DNA of 64,000 nt from the NCBI RefSeq assembly GCF_004118375.1, contig NZ_SDHX01000001.1, forward strand, positions 2,483,693 through 2,547,692, written 5' to 3'. Below, in pieces: positions 53,536 through 59,727 of the stretch; position 1 is the stretch's first letter; each line of letters opens with the position of its first letter. Origin of the DNA: Oleiharenicola lentus. Lineage in GTDB: Bacteria; Verrucomicrobiota; Verrucomicrobiia; Opitutales; Opitutaceae. The notes under the pieces were generated by a model that did no database searches, was not told the origin of the DNA, and saw only the letters and a program-made list of their open reading frames with translations. The position numbers were made by a program, and so were the translations under genes.

Positions 53536-54771
53536 ATGGCCGACAACATCGACTTCAGCATGAAAGCCCTTCTGACGCCCTGGCGCCGGCTCCTCGCCGA
53601 GCGCGAGTTCGTCGTGCTCATGCTGAGCAACCTGGTGCTCGGCATGGCCTACTCGTTCGTCGTGCCGTTCTACTCGATGTTCGGCACGATCGAGGTGGGC
53701 ATGTCCAACTGGACCTTCGGCGTGTTCATGACCATCACCACGCTGGCCGGCATCGGCATCAGCACGGCGCTGGCGCGCTGGTCGGACACGCGTTTCAGCC
53801 GCCGCTCCATCCTGCTCCTCGGCTGCCTCTGCGGGGCCCTCGGCTATGGCTGCTATGCCTACGTGCGCAGCGTGCTCTGGCTGACCGTGATCGGCTCGGT
53901 GGCGCTCGGCATCTCGTCGATCAGCTTCGCCCAGCTCTTCGCGGCGGCGCGCGAGGCGATGGGACGCCATGGCATCCCCCAGTCGGAGGCGCCGCTTTAC
54001 ATGAACATTTTCCGCCTGCTCTTCTCGCTGGCGTGGACCATCGGCCCGGCGATCTCGGCGTGGGTGATGATCCACGCCGCCTACGAGGGCATCTTCCTGG
54101 TCTGCGCGGGCCTGTTTGCGCTGCTGTTCGTGATCGTGCTGCTTTTCATTCCGCACCGGCCGCCACCCGCCGCCAATGCCGCCACCCGCCTGCCGTTGAC
54201 GCAGGTGCTGCGCCGCCCGGACCTGCTCTGCTACTTCGCCGCCATGGCGCTGGTCTTTGTCTGCGTCACGATGGGCATGATGGGGCTGCCCCTGATGATC
54301 CTGCGCACGCTCGGCGGCAACGAGAGCCACGTGGGCATCGCCTACAGCGTCGCGCCGGTCTTCGAGCTCCCCTTCATGTTCTGGTTCGGTCTGCTCGCCT
54401 CGCGCGAACATCCCGGTCGGCTCATCCGGCTCGGCGTGATCATCGCCATCGCCTACTACGTGCTGCTCTTTTTCGTCCGTGAGCCCTGGCACATCTACCC
54501 GGTGCAGATCCTCAGCGCCGCGATGATCGCCATCGTGTCAGGCATCGCGATCACCTTCTTCCAGAGCTACATTCCCGACCAACCCGGCACGGCCACCAAC
54601 CTTTACACCACGGCCAACCGCCTCGGCTCGACCGTCGGCTACCTCGCCTTCGGCACGCTGGCCGAGGTGCTGGGCTATCGGGCCATCTTCCTCGTCTGCG
54701 CGGGCCTCTGCGGCGCCGCCTTCCTGCTGCTCTGGCTCGCGCGGGAAAAGCACGAACACCCGGCGGCCTGA
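53536..54771 (+). CDS. MFS transporter (efflux or sugar type)
   Basis: A 411-residue inner-membrane protein with about 12 helices. The first loop (LARWSDTRFSRRSILL) is a motif-A variant; later motifs (SVAPVFELPFMFWFGLLASR) resemble the sugar-efflux or MFS_1 branch. The ATG at 53536 starts MADNIDFSMKALLTPW; a later ATG at 53560 is also possible. There is no partner gene, so the substrate is open. It is followed by the four-helix-bundle gene across an inverted repeat. Confidence 0.82.
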   Translation: MADNIDFSMKALLTPWRRLLAEREFVVLMLSNLVLGMAYSFVVPFYSMFGTIEVGMSNWTFGVFMTITTLAGIGISTALARWSDTRFSRRSILLLGCLCGALGYGCYAYVRSVLWLTVIGSVALGISSISFAQLFAAAREAMGRHGIPQSEAPLYMNIFRLLFSLAWTIGPAISAWVMIHAAYEGIFLVCAGLFALLFVIVLLFIPHRPPPAANAATRLPLTQVLRRPDLLCYFAAMALVFVCVTMGMMGLPLMILRTLGGNESHVGIAYSVAPVFELPFMFWFGLLASREHPGRLIRLGVIIAIAYYVLLFFVREPWHIYPVQILSAAMIAIVSGIAITFFQSYIPDQPGTATNLYTTANRLGSTVGYLAFGTLAEVLGYRAIFLVCAGLCGAAFLLLWLAREKHEHPAA

Positions 54772-54797
54772 GGCGCCGGCTCACGCGAAACTGAGGA

Positions 54798-55292
54798 GGT
54801 GAGGGTGTGAAACCTGAGGATAACGACCTTAAATCAGGTCGAGTCTTCCGCTGCTCTCAGAACAGAGATGGGCAAAGTTGCCGCCATGATTCCCCTCGAA
54901 GAAAGAAAAGTGCTCATGCGAAAAAGGACCAAGGCTTTCGCCAGTGCGGTGGTAAGATTTTATATCGGATTGGACAAGCGGCGCGAAGAGTTGAGGGTTC
55001 TTGGCAAGCAGGTGTTGCGATCTGGAACATCGGTTGCCGCAAACTACCGGGAAGGCTCCCGCGCGCGAAGCGCGGAGGAGTTCATTGCAAAAATTGAGCA
55101 ATGCACCCAGGAGGCCGACGAATCCCAGCTCTGGCTCGAGCTGTTGCGCGATGATTGCGGCATCGATTCCCCGGCCCTCACCTACCTCTGGCAGGAATCC
55201 GACGAATTGATCGCCATCTTCGTGACCATGGCCAAGCGCGCCAAAGGCGACTAGATTGCCCTCCTCACCCCCTCAGGTTTCACCCCCTCACC
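54798..55292. mobile_element. Inverted-repeat-bounded cassette carrying a four-helix-bundle gene (putative)
   Basis: The sequences 54798-54819 and 55271-55292 are 22-bp inverted repeats that match at 21 positions. They enclose one gene (54868-55254). Purine-rich GAGG/GGTG units recur next to each repeat. Four-helix-bundle (S23) proteins are best known from intervening sequences of 23S rRNA genes, whose ends are also inverted repeats. Together this suggests a small non-autonomous element, but no transposase is present and no target duplication was found. Confidence 0.5.
54868..55254 (+). CDS. Four-helix-bundle protein (S23 type)
   Basis: A 128-residue protein whose core is the S23 family: SGTSVAANYREGSRARS, then EFIAKIEQCTQEADESQLWL. 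It folds as a four-helix bundle and forms pentamers in known structures. Its biological role is unknown. In some bacteria such genes sit inside rRNA intervening sequences, in others they stand alone. Other starts at 54886 and 54916 are possible. The gene lies within a 21/22-bp inverted repeat and has no relation to its neighbours. Confidence 0.9.
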   Translation: MGKVAAMIPLEERKVLMRKRTKAFASAVVRFYIGLDKRREELRVLGKQVLRSGTSVAANYREGSRARSAEEFIAKIEQCTQEADESQLWLELLRDDCGIDSPALTYLWQESDELIAIFVTMAKRAKGD

Positions 55293-55307
55293 CCCTCTCC
55301 GCTAGGC

Positions 55308-58300
55308 TCACGCTTCCGCCAGCGTCGTGGCGCGCTCGATGGCCAAGGTCCGGCATCCCTTCAGGTCGGTCTTGCCCGTGCCGAGCACGGGGATCGCGTC
55401 CACCTTCACGATGAGCTTCGGCACCCAGAGATTCGGGAATCCGGCCTCCAGCAGCTTCGCGCGGACATCAGCGAGCACGACCTCCTTCGTCGTGAGGAGC
55501 ACGAGCGCCTCGCCCTTGGACGCATCGGGGATGCCGGTGACCACGGCGGTCGGGCCGTCGTTCTGGTCCCACTCGAAGGCCGTGATGAGCCGCTGCTCGA
55601 TCGTCCCGTGCGGCACCATCTCGCCGCCGATCTTGGAGAAACGCGAGAGCCGGCCTTCAATGAACAGGAAGCCGTCCTCGTCGATCCGGCCCAGATCCCC
55701 CGTGATGAACCAACGGTCCTTGATGGCCGCCGCCGTCTTCTCCGGATCCTTCAGATAGCCCGGGAAAACGTGCGGGCCCTTGAGCCAGAGCATGCCGGTC
55801 GAGTTGAGCGGCAGTTCTTCACCGGTGTCGGGATCGGTGATCTTGGCGGTCGAGCCGGGCAGCAACCGGCCAACGGCGCCGAGCCGCTTGCCCTCCTGGT
55901 GCTCGGCCGTCGAGGTCGTGATCGGCGGGTGATACTGGTTGATGCTCGCGGCGGGCGTGGTCTCCGTGAGGCCGTAGCCCTGCAGGATCTCGATGCCGAA
56001 CTGCGCCAGGAACGCGTCGTAGAGATCCATCGGGAGCTTCTCGGCGCCCGTGACCACGAGGTTGAGGGTCTTGAGTTCCTCCTTCGTCGCCTTCTTGAGG
56101 AACGGCCGGATGAAGGTCGGTGCGCCGATCATGACCGTCGCCTGCTCCTCCTTGATCGCATCCACGATTTTCTTGGTGTCGAGCGGGCTCGGCACGGTCA
56201 CCACGCGGCAACCGCGCATGAGCGGATACCAGAGCGTCACGGTGAAGCCGAACGAATGAAACACCGGCAGACAGCCGAGCATCGTCGCCGTCTCGGGCAG
56301 GATGGAGAGCGAGGAAATCTGCGCGCAGTTCGACAGGATGTTGCGATGCGTCAGCACCACGCCCTTCGGCTCGCCGGAACTCCCGCTCGTGAAGAGCAGC
56401 GCCGCCTCCTCGTTGTCGCCGGTGCGCGACAAGCCCATGAGGTCGGCCACCCACTGGTTGGGCAGCACATTGGCGGCGAGCAGCCACGGGATGATGGCCT
56501 TCTTGCCGCCGGCCGCCTCGACCTCCTTCTTGAAGTCCAGCGTGCGCTCCGGGAAGGGGAAATTCGGCACCTTGGCCCGCATCGCGTCGGCGGAGATGAC
56601 GGTCTTGATCTCGCCCAACCGCAGCGACGCCTCGACCGCGGCCTTGCCGGCCGTGAAGTTGAGGTTCACCGGGACCTTGCCCGCGCAGGCAATGGCGAGA
56701 TTGGCGATGGTCGCGCCGGCGCCCGGCGGCAGCACAATGCCCACGCGCTTCTCGGGGACCGTCGCCTTGATGCGGCGGGCGAGAACGGCGGCCACCGCGA
56801 TCAATTGTCCGGCCTTGATCTCACGGCGGTCCGCCGTGCGGTCCACCACGGCGACATGCCGCGGGTGCTTGGCGAGCGCCCGCACCGCCTCGCGCGCAAG
56901 ATTGCGTTTCAACACCGGCCGTTCCTGGAAGGCCTGTTCACCGAGGTCCAGCAACGCCCGGCGGGCGGAGTCGAGATTGACCTTCGCGGACGGTATCGGA
57001 GCGCCGAACATCACGCAGACGTGCGTCGGCATCAGCCGGGGCGGTTTCCAGAGGTATTTGTTGCCGGCAAAGGAGTAGATCGAACCCCACAGCCCGTCGA
57101 TCGCCGCGGGCACCACCGGCGCCTTGGCCGACTCGGCAATCAGGCCGAAGCCGCGCTTGAGCTGCATCAGTTGCCCGGTGCGCGAGATCGCGCCCTCGGG
57201 GAAGACGCAGACCAGCTCGCCGTTCTGGATCGCCTCGACCGCGAGCCGGATGCCCTTCATCGGCTTGTTGGCCGTGACCGGAATCACCCCCGCCGCCCGA
57301 AAGATAAACCGCATGAACGGGCTCTTCACAAAGCCCGCAAACGCGATGAACCGCATCGGCCGCGGCGAAGCGATCTGCAGCACGACCGCGTCCACATAGG
57401 AGAGGTGGTTGCAGATCATGAGCGCCCCACCCTGCGGGATGTTTTCCCAGCCGATGGATTTCACCCGGTAGAAGATCGGTCCGATCAACCGCATCACCGT
57501 GCAGACCGTGTGGTGCGGGATGTGCCAGACGCCGTAAAGCAGCATCGCGAAGGTCACCGCGGCCAGGAGGAAAAGCTGGGCATGGGGGTTGAGCGCCAAG
57601 GCGCCGTCGCCCGCCACCAACGAGTAGACGCCGCTGATCGCCGAACCCGCGAGGCTGTCCAGCAGGGCCACGCCGGCCAGGATGCGCCCGCGCCGATGAT
57701 CGCCTGACTTCTGCTGGATGAACGCATACAGCGGCACCACGAAAAGCCCGGTGGCAAATCCCGCCGCGACCAGCAGGCCGGTGAAGCCTGAACCGCCAAA
57801 CGGCGTGAACCCCATCGCAAAGAGCACGCCCAGCAGCAGGGCGCCGCCAATCGGCGCCAGGCCGAGTTCGACGCCGCGCCGCGACAGCAGACCCGCCAGC
57901 AGGTTGCCCAGCATCGTGCCGACGCCGACCCACAGCATCATCAGGCTGGAGACGGCCGAGGTTTTCACTCCCCCGCCTTCCAGTTCGTAGGCGATCTGCG
58001 GGATAAGCAGCATGAAGTAGCCGCCCACCGCGTAGAAGAAGCAGATGCCCATCGTGGAGCGCCACAGTGGCCGCTCGCGCCACACCTCGACGATGTCCGT
58101 GAAGTGCCGGAACCAGAGGCTCCAGCGGAAAGGCTCCGTCGACTGGGACTTCGTGGGCTGGGCCACTTGGAAAAATGCCCACGCCACCACGGCCAATCCG
58201 GTCAACAACCACGCCACCTTCAGGCCGGCCGCCCAGATATCCTCCCCCTGTCCCAGCCAATGGGAAAACAGCCAGCCGCCCGCAAAGGTGCCCACCAGGA

Positions 58301-58751
58301 TCGCCGTGATGTTCAGCATCTCCATGTAGCCCACCCAGCGCGACAACTGCCGCTCGCCGACGTATTCGAGCAGGATGCCGCGCTTGGCCGGCGCCAGGAC
58401 CGCGGTCTCGGCCGAGAGGAGGAAAAAGGCCACCATCGCCAGGCCGTAGGACTTGAAGGAAAGGGCCGCGACCAACAGCAGCATGACTCCCACCTGCGAG
58501 ATGAGCGTCCAATTGAGCACACTGCGTTTGGGAAACCGGTCGGCCAACCACCCGCAGACCGGCGCAAACAGCACATAGGGCAGCACCAACAGCAGCGCGA
58601 TGAACGAGATCATCGGCTTCGGATCCTCCCCGGCCGCCCGCGCCAGCTGCTGGGTGAGGCCGATGAGCATGAATTTCGCCGCGCAGTCGTTAAAAGTTTC
58701 CTGCGCCTGGGCAAGGAGGAGCGCGGCCAGCGAAGCACGGGGTAGTTTCAT
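55308..58751 (-). CDS. aas: LplT-PlsC-acyl-ACP synthetase triple fusion (Aas-like)
   Basis: A 1147-residue protein joining three functions. Residues 1-400 are an MFS-type lysophospholipid flippase (AAKFMLIGLTQQLARAAG and LADRFPKRSVL). Next is a PlsC acyltransferase with H-x4-D in NHLSYVDAV (near 446) and FPEGAISRTG (near 515). The last is an AMP-forming acyl-ACP/acyl-CoA synthetase with TSGSSGEPKG (near 790), GYGLTETTPA, and GDLGRIDEDGF (near 1020). In E. coli LplT and Aas are separate. It would recycle lysophospholipids. ATG 58751 begins MKLPRASL; the longer frame upstream is unrelated. Confidence 0.93.
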   Translation of the reverse strand: MKLPRASLAALLLAQAQETFNDCAAKFMLIGLTQQLARAAGEDPKPMISFIALLLVLPYVLFAPVCGWLADRFPKRSVLNWTLISQVGVMLLLVAALSFKSYGLAMVAFFLLSAETAVLAPAKRGILLEYVGERQLSRWVGYMEMLNITAILVGTFAGGWLFSHWLGQGEDIWAAGLKVAWLLTGLAVVAWAFFQVAQPTKSQSTEPFRWSLWFRHFTDIVEVWRERPLWRSTMGICFFYAVGGYFMLLIPQIAYELEGGGVKTSAVSSLMMLWVGVGTMLGNLLAGLLSRRGVELGLAPIGGALLLGVLFAMGFTPFGGSGFTGLLVAAGFATGLFVVPLYAFIQQKSGDHRRGRILAGVALLDSLAGSAISGVYSLVAGDGALALNPHAQLFLLAAVTFAMLLYGVWHIPHHTVCTVMRLIGPIFYRVKSIGWENIPQGGALMICNHLSYVDAVVLQIASPRPMRFIAFAGFVKSPFMRFIFRAAGVIPVTANKPMKGIRLAVEAIQNGELVCVFPEGAISRTGQLMQLKRGFGLIAESAKAPVVPAAIDGLWGSIYSFAGNKYLWKPPRLMPTHVCVMFGAPIPSAKVNLDSARRALLDLGEQAFQERPVLKRNLAREAVRALAKHPRHVAVVDRTADRREIKAGQLIAVAAVLARRIKATVPEKRVGIVLPPGAGATIANLAIACAGKVPVNLNFTAGKAAVEASLRLGEIKTVISADAMRAKVPNFPFPERTLDFKKEVEAAGGKKAIIPWLLAANVLPNQWVADLMGLSRTGDNEEAALLFTSGSSGEPKGVVLTHRNILSNCAQISSLSILPETATMLGCLPVFHSFGFTVTLWYPLMRGCRVVTVPSPLDTKKIVDAIKEEQATVMIGAPTFIRPFLKKATKEELKTLNLVVTGAEKLPMDLYDAFLAQFGIEILQGYGLTETTPAASINQYHPPITTSTAEHQEGKRLGAVGRLLPGSTAKITDPDTGEELPLNSTGMLWLKGPHVFPGYLKDPEKTAAAIKDRWFITGDLGRIDEDGFLFIEGRLSRFSKIGGEMVPHGTIEQRLITAFEWDQNDGPTAVVTGIPDASKGEALVLLTTKEVVLADVRAKLLEAGFPNLWVPKLIVKVDAIPVLGTGKTDLKGCRTLAIERATTLAEA

Positions 58752-58869
58752 GCAGGGGGTAGCGCCCTCACAGTGCCCGCCTACCCTGCTTCGGCAAGTT
58801 CTTCCTTTGCTCGCGGGCTGGGGCCGGAATTGGCTGGAAACATTCCGTGCCCGCCCTGTCCTAGACGAC

Positions 58870-59727
58870 ATGCTCCGCCCGTTGCTGCTTTCCGCCCTGA
58901 CCGTCCTCGCCGTGCATGCGGGTGAGCCGTCGGTCCGCGAACAGGTCGGCGAGCTTTTCCAACAGCGCCGGTGGCATGACGCGCGACTCGTGCTCGAGGG
59001 CATCACGGCAAGGGAGCCCGCCAACGCCGAGGCCTGGCAGGCCCTCGGCCAGGCCAATCTCGCCCTGCAAAACGCCGACGCCGCCGTCGCCGCCCAGGAG
59101 AAGGCCGTCGAGCTTCTGCCCCACGACGCCGTTTACCGGCTCCAGCTTGGCCACGCCTACGGCTTTGCCGCCACCAAGGCCGGGCTCTTCGCTAAGCTGG
59201 GTTTCGCGAAAAAATGCAAGGCCGCCTACGACCGCGCCGTCGAACTCGATCCGACCAACCTCAACGCCCGCTGGAGCCTCATGGAATTCTGCCGGCAAGC
59301 CCCCGGCATTGTGGGCGGAGGGATCGAGCTCGCCTACGCGCAGGCGGCGGAGATCAAGAAACTCGACGTCCGCCGCGGACGCGCCGCCTACGCCTCCCTC
59401 TACTCGCACGAAAAGAAATTCACCGAGGCCATCGCCCTCTACGACGAGGTCCTGCGCGAAACGCCCGGCGATCCCGACGCGCTCTACCACTTCGGCCGCC
59501 TCGCCGCCCAAACCGGCCTGCAGCTCGATCGCGGCCTCGCCGCACTGCGCGAGATCGTCGCCCAGCCCGACCGCAAAAACGACGCCCGCGTGCACACCTT
59601 CATCGGCGACATCCTCCTGAAAAAGGGCGACAAACCCGGCGCGATCACCGCTTACGAGACCGCCCTCACCGGCGACCCCGGCTATACCCGCGCACTCGAG
59701 GCCCTCCGCAAGCTGAAGGAAGGCTGA
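58870..59727 (+). CDS. Exported TPR-repeat protein
   Basis: A 285-residue protein with a signal-like N-terminus (MLRPLLLSALTVLAVHA). It consists of tandem tetratricopeptide units: motifs AWQALGQANLALQNADAAV, LQLGHAYGFA and ALYHFGRLAAQ, with typical W/G/A/P positions. The region between units 3 and 4 has a longer helical insert (KCKAAYDRAVELDPTNLN). TPR proteins form scaffolds; this one probably acts in the periplasm, with an unknown partner. It is divergent from the Aas-like gene over 118 bp. Confidence 0.85.
   Translation: MLRPLLLSALTVLAVHAGEPSVREQVGELFQQRRWHDARLVLEGITAREPANAEAWQALGQANLALQNADAAVAAQEKAVELLPHDAVYRLQLGHAYGFAATKAGLFAKLGFAKKCKAAYDRAVELDPTNLNARWSLMEFCRQAPGIVGGGIELAYAQAAEIKKLDVRRGRAAYASLYSHEKKFTEAIALYDEVLRETPGDPDALYHFGRLAAQTGLQLDRGLAALREIVAQPDRKNDARVHTFIGDILLKKGDKPGAITAYETALTGDPGYTRALEALRKLKEG

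Follow-up and report, generated by a model that had tools for sequence, protein, structure and literature searches.

The S23 element and its neighbours

The window, that is, the whole stretch of 64,000 nucleotides of Oleiharenicola lentus DNA that was analysed, contains a gene for a four-helix-bundle protein of the S23/IVP family, enclosed between two short arrays of degenerate repeats and located between two protein-coding genes. The features of the locus are the following:

53536..54771, + strand: neighbouring MFS transporter gene (domain match), context outside the element
54778..54786, + strand: left copy of the direct repeat GGCTCACGC, 9 bp, flanking the element; candidate target duplication
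54787..54819, + strand: left array of 7-8-bp units starting with TGA, limits set by eye; pairs with the right array
54868..55254, + strand: S23/IVP four-helix-bundle ORF of 128 amino acids, with profile matches
55260..55299, + strand: right array, inverted with respect to the left array, limits set by eye
55305..55313, + strand: right copy of the direct repeat GGCTCACGC, reaching into the 3' end of the next gene
55308..59057, - strand: neighbouring ORF with MFS, acyltransferase and AMP-binding domains (domain matches), context outside the element

The enclosed ORF matches PF05635 with 53.2 bits (cut-off 33.8) and TIGR02436, 'four helix bundle protein', with 73.9 bits (cut-off 24); judged from its relatives, the second ATG, at position 54886, may be its true start. 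A repeat search of the window places the arms at 54793-54819 and 55271-55297 (27 nt, 93% complementary), and in their 22-bp core 21 of 22 positions are paired, compared with at most 18 (mean 14.7) in 100 dinucleotide shuffles of both flanks. The inverted repeat scores 22 versus 9.5-14 in eight mispaired controls. The inverted repeats that a preliminary description of this DNA had reported around the gene are therefore real, and the element is slightly bigger than the interval 54798-55292 assigned to it there, as the arrays run, by eye, from about 54787 to 54819 and from about 55260 to 55299. The arms are short arrays of degenerate 7-8-bp units, with no fixed terminal repeat, and folding of the element as RNA predicts a terminal stem in both the MFE and the centroid structures (z -3.74).

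The same description saw no functional link between the gene and its surroundings, and none is evident with the MFS transporter on one side and the ORF at 55308-59057 on the other. The latter joins its MFS, acyltransferase and AMP-binding domains in a single reading frame, and its true start probably lies inside the called frame. A search with Rfam finds one tRNA and no rRNA in the window. Three other long inverted repeats are present in the window, at 53320-53346/53378-53404 (27 nt, 96%), 22395-22417/22448-22470 (23 nt, 96%) and 17461-17489/19782-19810 (29 nt, 93%). Lastly, the string GGCTCACGC occurs twice in the whole window, and the 9-bp direct repeat that it forms around the element is only suggestive as a target duplication. 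The target-site duplication for which the preliminary description had suggested a test has a candidate at the window copy, but there is no general signal of it, as the direct repeats next to the arrays at 146 loci resemble those of mispaired controls.

Arrays at the borders of S23 genes

S23/IVP genes are familiar mostly from rRNA insertions, and we know of no established function for them. The window genome (G000, 4.71 Mb) has nine PF05635 matches, eight of them above the cut-off, and, when printed side by side, most of these genes have degenerate 7-bp repeats at their borders in opposite orientation. The words differ from locus to locus (e.g., GGAGACC, ACGATTT, GATTTTC, GAGACCT, AAGTAAC); the look at other four-helix-bundle genes that the preliminary description had suggested thus finds the arrangement at most of them, each with its own word. 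With a strict criterion of at least 20 of 28 at a lag of 7 in at least one flank, four of the nine loci pass (L001, L004, L006, L008), L002, L003 and L005 reach 18-19 of 28, and L009 and the window's own locus fail, the latter (12/28 and 15/28) because its units alternate between 7 and 8 bp. The inverted match of the two flanks is clearly above mispaired controls at L004, L006, L007 and L008, and not, or barely, at the other five.

The comparison was extended to 206 S23 loci: 98 from the window genome and its relatives (the nine above and 89 among the matches listed in the relatives, some of which were picked mostly as long matches far from contig ends), 79 from across phyla (80 kept of 586 confirmed hits, minus L129, a duplicate of L068) and 29 from the order of Dokdonella (one per genome, with L373 and L374 excluded as repeats of L170 and L197). 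With array thresholds of our own choice, 7- or 8-bp arrays are found in at least one flank of 162 of the 206 loci (71/98, 69/79 and 22/29), 44 loci have none by the criterion used, and both flanks pass at only 32 of the 98 and 39 of the 79. The periodicity is specific: when lags from 4 to 20, except 14, were tested in the 98-locus set, 51 loci reached 20/28 at lag 7 and 0-7 loci did so at any other lag. Likewise, lag 7 is reached by 54 of the 79 cross-phylum loci (lag 8 by 10, lag 16 by 7, other lags by 0-10) and by 17 of the 29 loci from the Dokdonella order (lag 8 by two, the other tested lags by none). The arrays are also confined to the borders of the gene, being detected in 139 of 348 segments adjoining it versus 15 of 688 segments at 600-1150 bp.

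Other gene families of the relatives served as controls, with 28 of 30 loci each after two were dropped for short flanks. Arrays accompany 2 of 28 ParE toxin genes, and Y1 transposase genes have short 7/8-bp arrays at 3 of 28 loci and no lag-7 pass (0/28), versus the 71 of 98 S23 loci. Shuffles, mispaired loci, other lags, distant segments and other gene families together rule out chance or composition as the source of the arrays. The Y1 loci also bear on the idea that the arrays are REP-like repeats of the usual kind, mobilised by the RAYT/Y1 transposases of the same genomes: 25 of 38 genomes carry Y1_Tnp genes, among them G024, which has solitary arrays (see below), and 10 of the 28 Y1_Tnp loci have inverted flanks, so that inverted flanks are not special to S23 as such; those flanks, however, lack heptads, and a RAYT/Y1 origin is accordingly very improbable.

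A first estimate of exactly five units per array was forced by the window size of that estimate and was discarded; a refined estimate puts the medians at 4.4-4.6 units, widely scattered and subject to a lower limit of detection, and these values are compatible with one unit per protein subunit without proving it. As to distribution, the archaeal Methanophagales loci L166 and L191 have octad arrays, with nucleotide matches of 87-91%. Plasmid records matching S23 number 22, of which 16 are cyanobacterial by genus name, and phage records gave no match for the S23 query used. Among the seven of these 22 plasmid-borne relatives that were inspected, all cyanobacterial, both flanks pass at lag 7 in five; L372 is an octad locus, with 18 and 20 at lag 8, and L368 reaches 20 in a single flank, and visual inspection reveals no inverted pair there. 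The plasmid copies sit, for example, between nrdB and nrdA, cas6 and cas4, and cas10 and a cmr3-like gene, and those at L370 and L372 are S23 cassettes within CRISPR-Cas gene clusters. On the side of the relatives, the octad-array S23 genes L126 (G012:C40) and L128 (G013:C1) lie between genes reading as ATP synthase gamma and beta subunits.

The two arms form a pair

The two flanks of S23 genes match each other in inverted orientation at 41 of the 98 and 47 of the 79 loci, and in direct orientation at 3 and 4, respectively, with flank matches in 1.1% and 0.6% of mispaired loci. Moreover, when orthologous sites are compared, 38 of 51 pairs show a better fit of an arm to its own partner than to that of a related species, and 11 a worse one; neither these pairs nor those used below for word similarity and for pN/pS are mutually independent. 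The formation of an RNA stem by the arms, with the gene in its loop, is in this way partly shown.

The two arms differ in composition: purine-rich arrays predominate upstream (38:15 and 40:17) and pyrimidine-rich ones downstream (43:5 and 40:10), an asymmetry that hints at a strand-specific reader. Transitions and transversions between units are 215:211 in the genus set (composition predicts 162:264) and 174:183 in the cross-phylum set (composition predicts 125:232); this transition excess was considered as a sign of wobble pairing and the idea was dropped, as ordinary mutation bias would produce it too.

Gene and arrays travel together

For pairs of S23 genes at non-homologous sites, the similarity of the array words rises with the identity of the proteins: it is about 0.05 below 50% identity, 0.09 at 50-60%, 0.37 at 60-80% (23 pairs) and 0.75 at 80% or more (6 pairs). 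The flank proteins were checked for 18 such pairs, and related genes were found in three (L120, L118 and L114, each with L121). This comparison shows, at the level of sequence, that arrays and gene behave as one evolutionary unit that occupies unrelated sites. The S23 subfamily of the window is found at four places in three genomes, and the relative in G007 is homologous along the entire window element, arrays included. This nearest relative, L110 (G007:C157:10045-10410), lies, by eye, next to the orthologue of the gene that the window element borders, but at its 5' end instead of its 3' end.

Genome G031 carries several copies of an octad version (GGCACAAA): two are complete, 93% alike and located at different loci, and in two more the gene interior is deleted or replaced. 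At its loci L322, L324 and L325, where this multi-copy octad element is found, arrays of other 6-8-bp words occur nearby. Regarding orientation, at the 152 loci with both neighbours called, both are in the sense of S23 at 95 and both against it at 12. The count takes the longest ORF close by as the neighbour, a choice prone to error where GC content is high (the calls at L049 and L072 look wrong), and covers S23 loci with no control gene set; it partly shows that the gene mostly shares the orientation of its neighbours.

Empty sites, remnants and solitary arrays

The window junction is empty in two relatives, with about 22 bp between the genes in G003 and about 4 bp in G007, and neither S23 nor array in either. 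The empty site for which the preliminary description had suggested looking in a close relative is therefore found, and with it a trait of insertion sequences and MITEs, a clean empty site. In G012 about 140 bp of unrelated sequence fill the junction. L290 (G020:C192, compared with window positions 54753-55306), the closest relative detected at the site, has a different insert of more than 800 bp, and the junction may be a tolerant site because G020 carries another insert at the same place.

A second site, livK|livH, was found in 14 genomes and read in 13 of them (without G021). Five have S23 with arrays, G001 has a partial S23 with an array, G011 (21/28) and G012 (18/28, by eye) have a single arm of similar word with the gene absent, and four have no array; in G002 the junction runs directly from gene to gene. 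Taken with the copies in G031, the comparison shows that related species differ in whether a given site carries the element, and that the element occurs in full, partial and multi-copy forms, as far as sequence can tell. The full, partial, single-arm and clean states of livK|livH are also the reason why solitary arrays, which number 12 in G000, 7 in G013 and 20 in G024 in samples of 400 kb, are read as relics, and would represent decayed S23 elements. Both S23 genes without repeats and repeats without the gene, either of which the preliminary description had taken to count against a cassette, do occur, and the outcome is mixed: the former are the 44 array-less loci, and the latter, at many gene-free sites, are those that we read as relics.

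Conversely, the arrays may have come first, as an independent genome feature of dispersed heptad repeats within whose inverted pairs S23 genes settled. Solitary arrays are indeed common: G024, with its abundance of them, has no PF05635 match among the matches listed, and GAAACCT-type arrays are present also in genomes without a cognate S23, so that a requirement for a cognate S23 in the same genome is unsupported. The abundance in G024 fits relics and also leaves room for arrays that live independently. However, the orthologous empty sites carry no arrays, the words travel with the protein, and the solitary words resemble the S23 words of their own genome, both in G000 (0.417 versus 0.149 for random sets, 0 of 1000 as high) and in G013 (0.191 versus 0.097, P 0.04, for four of its loci). 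Moreover, none of the 39 solitary lag-7 arrays has a separate inverted partner within 1.5 kb, although three 8-bp solitary arrays of G013 have one 24-116 nt away. Arrays that preceded the gene are on this evidence an unlikely explanation, albeit one with some claim.

The window element instead probably belongs to a widespread family of minimal mobile cassettes, consisting of one S23/IVP gene between inverted 7-8-bp arrays. The preliminary description had suggested such a small cassette, and the suggestion is borne out by the empty junction in the two relatives, by the joint presence of arrays and protein at non-homologous sites and by the same architecture around most sampled S23 genes.

The S23 protein

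In all 96 pairs of S23 proteins with at least 60% identity pN is lower than pS, with median ratios of 0.27 and 0.25, and comparison at the sequence level thus shows the protein to be under purifying selection; therefore, it is likely made and useful, either to the host or to the element. Xcc0516 reportedly consists of five four-helix bundles, according to the title of a cited reference. A profile search retrieves two solved relatives, 2rld and 2gsc, with five chains each. A single-sequence structure prediction of the S23 protein of the window had a mean pLDDT of 41.8 and was left unused.

A possible mode of action and the question of the mover

In the proposed mechanism, the element would sit in transcribed gaps between genes, where its arms would pair into a terminal RNA stem with the S23 gene in the loop. 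By analogy with the rRNA intervening sequence (IVS) of Coxiella, for which RNase III cleavage has been reported (PMC4990558), RNase III would cut the stem and separate the element from the host message, and insertion between genes would be tolerated for this reason. The S23 ring would bind the arrays, perhaps with one unit per subunit, and the part of the protein would be to protect the element or to move it. Movement is visible only by its results.

A reverse transcriptase could move the element as RNA, with S23 in the role that Avd, a protein with a related four-helix-bundle fold (PMC10053308), plays in diversity-generating retroelements, and the sense orientation of many elements would agree with this. 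Nevertheless, RVT_1 is found in 9 of the 38 genomes, and 20 of the 27 S23-bearing genomes, several of them drafts, have no RVT_1 match among the matches listed; those without it include the one- or two-contig genomes G003, G013, G023 and the window genome G000, which differs in this from the bearers of diversity-generating retroelements. Movement by a reverse transcriptase is quite improbable, although a past or external enzyme might have acted. In short, the lack of an RVT_1 match in most carriers and the Y1 loci without heptads disfavour both a reverse transcriptase and RAYT as the mover.

Relation to known systems

The closest known system is the 23S rRNA IVS of Coxiella burnetii with its S23p, of the same protein family as the window ORF; its inverted terminal repeats form a 28-bp stem, and two to three tandem heptamers precede its ORF (PMC4990558). 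The window arms are likewise predicted to form an RNA stem. From the shared protein family and the paired ends, the preliminary description had suggested that the window element may be a cassette that moved out of rRNA, and the Coxiella IVS does combine the protein family, the paired ends and the heptameric repeats (PMC4990558). Escape from rRNA is unsupported in our comparison: a 23S motif lies near 0 of 177 loci, in a weak test that used short motifs and no positive control, and the reverse direction is equally plausible, making an origin by escape highly improbable. Rather than sitting in a 16S or 23S gene, as rRNA intervening sequences do, elements of the window type differ from the Coxiella IVS in lying between protein genes, in having arrays on both sides and in encoding a protein under purifying selection, whereas the Coxiella S23p is thought by the authors of that report not to be made and to be decaying (PMC4990558). 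The report also cites older proposals of the IVS as a mobile element (PMC4990558). The rRNA intervening sequences would be one case of the cassette, which would decay into solitary arrays.

REP/RAYT systems and REPINs likewise have a gene within inverted repeats whose relatives are dispersed in the genome (PMC2817692, PMC3116915, PMC3686654). The window element differs from them in that its only enclosed ORF is S23, without a transposase domain, in that arrays of 7-8-bp units replace palindromes, and in that the Y1 genes of these genomes lack heptad arrays.

Degenerate intergenic heptamer arrays have been described in Xanthomonas and Nostoc (GGGAATC, GGGGAYT), in Xanthomonas mostly with four units and often as inverted pairs (PMC4692102), and in Beggiatoaceae (TAACTGA; PMC4679880). 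Words similar to the published heptamers lie beside the S23 genes L389, L391 and L160, and the main texts of PMC4692102 and PMC4679880 do not mention S23. Among the papers listed in a search of the open-access literature, none was recognised as drawing a general link between S23/IVP genes and heptad arrays.

Significance

S23 and short inverted arrays of 7-8 nt may, as a tentative generalisation that we hold at somewhat less than even odds, be the two components of a selfish system that is general in bacteria and extends to some archaea. Each S23 subfamily would have its cognate word, read by a five-fold ring with about one unit per subunit, and the system would move without a transposase or reverse transcriptase of its own; the intergenic heptamer arrays of Xanthomonas, cyanobacteria and Beggiatoaceae would all derive from it, with the rRNA intervening sequences merely its most visible case. 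The repeat signature common to most sampled S23 genes, with a word that tracks the close subfamily, provides a testable ligand for the protein, and heptamer arrays that were reported separately in several groups are offered one shared explanation. If S23 binds its arrays, a few dozen bases and a small ring-forming protein would together make up a mobile element, one that brings along no recognised nuclease or polymerase.
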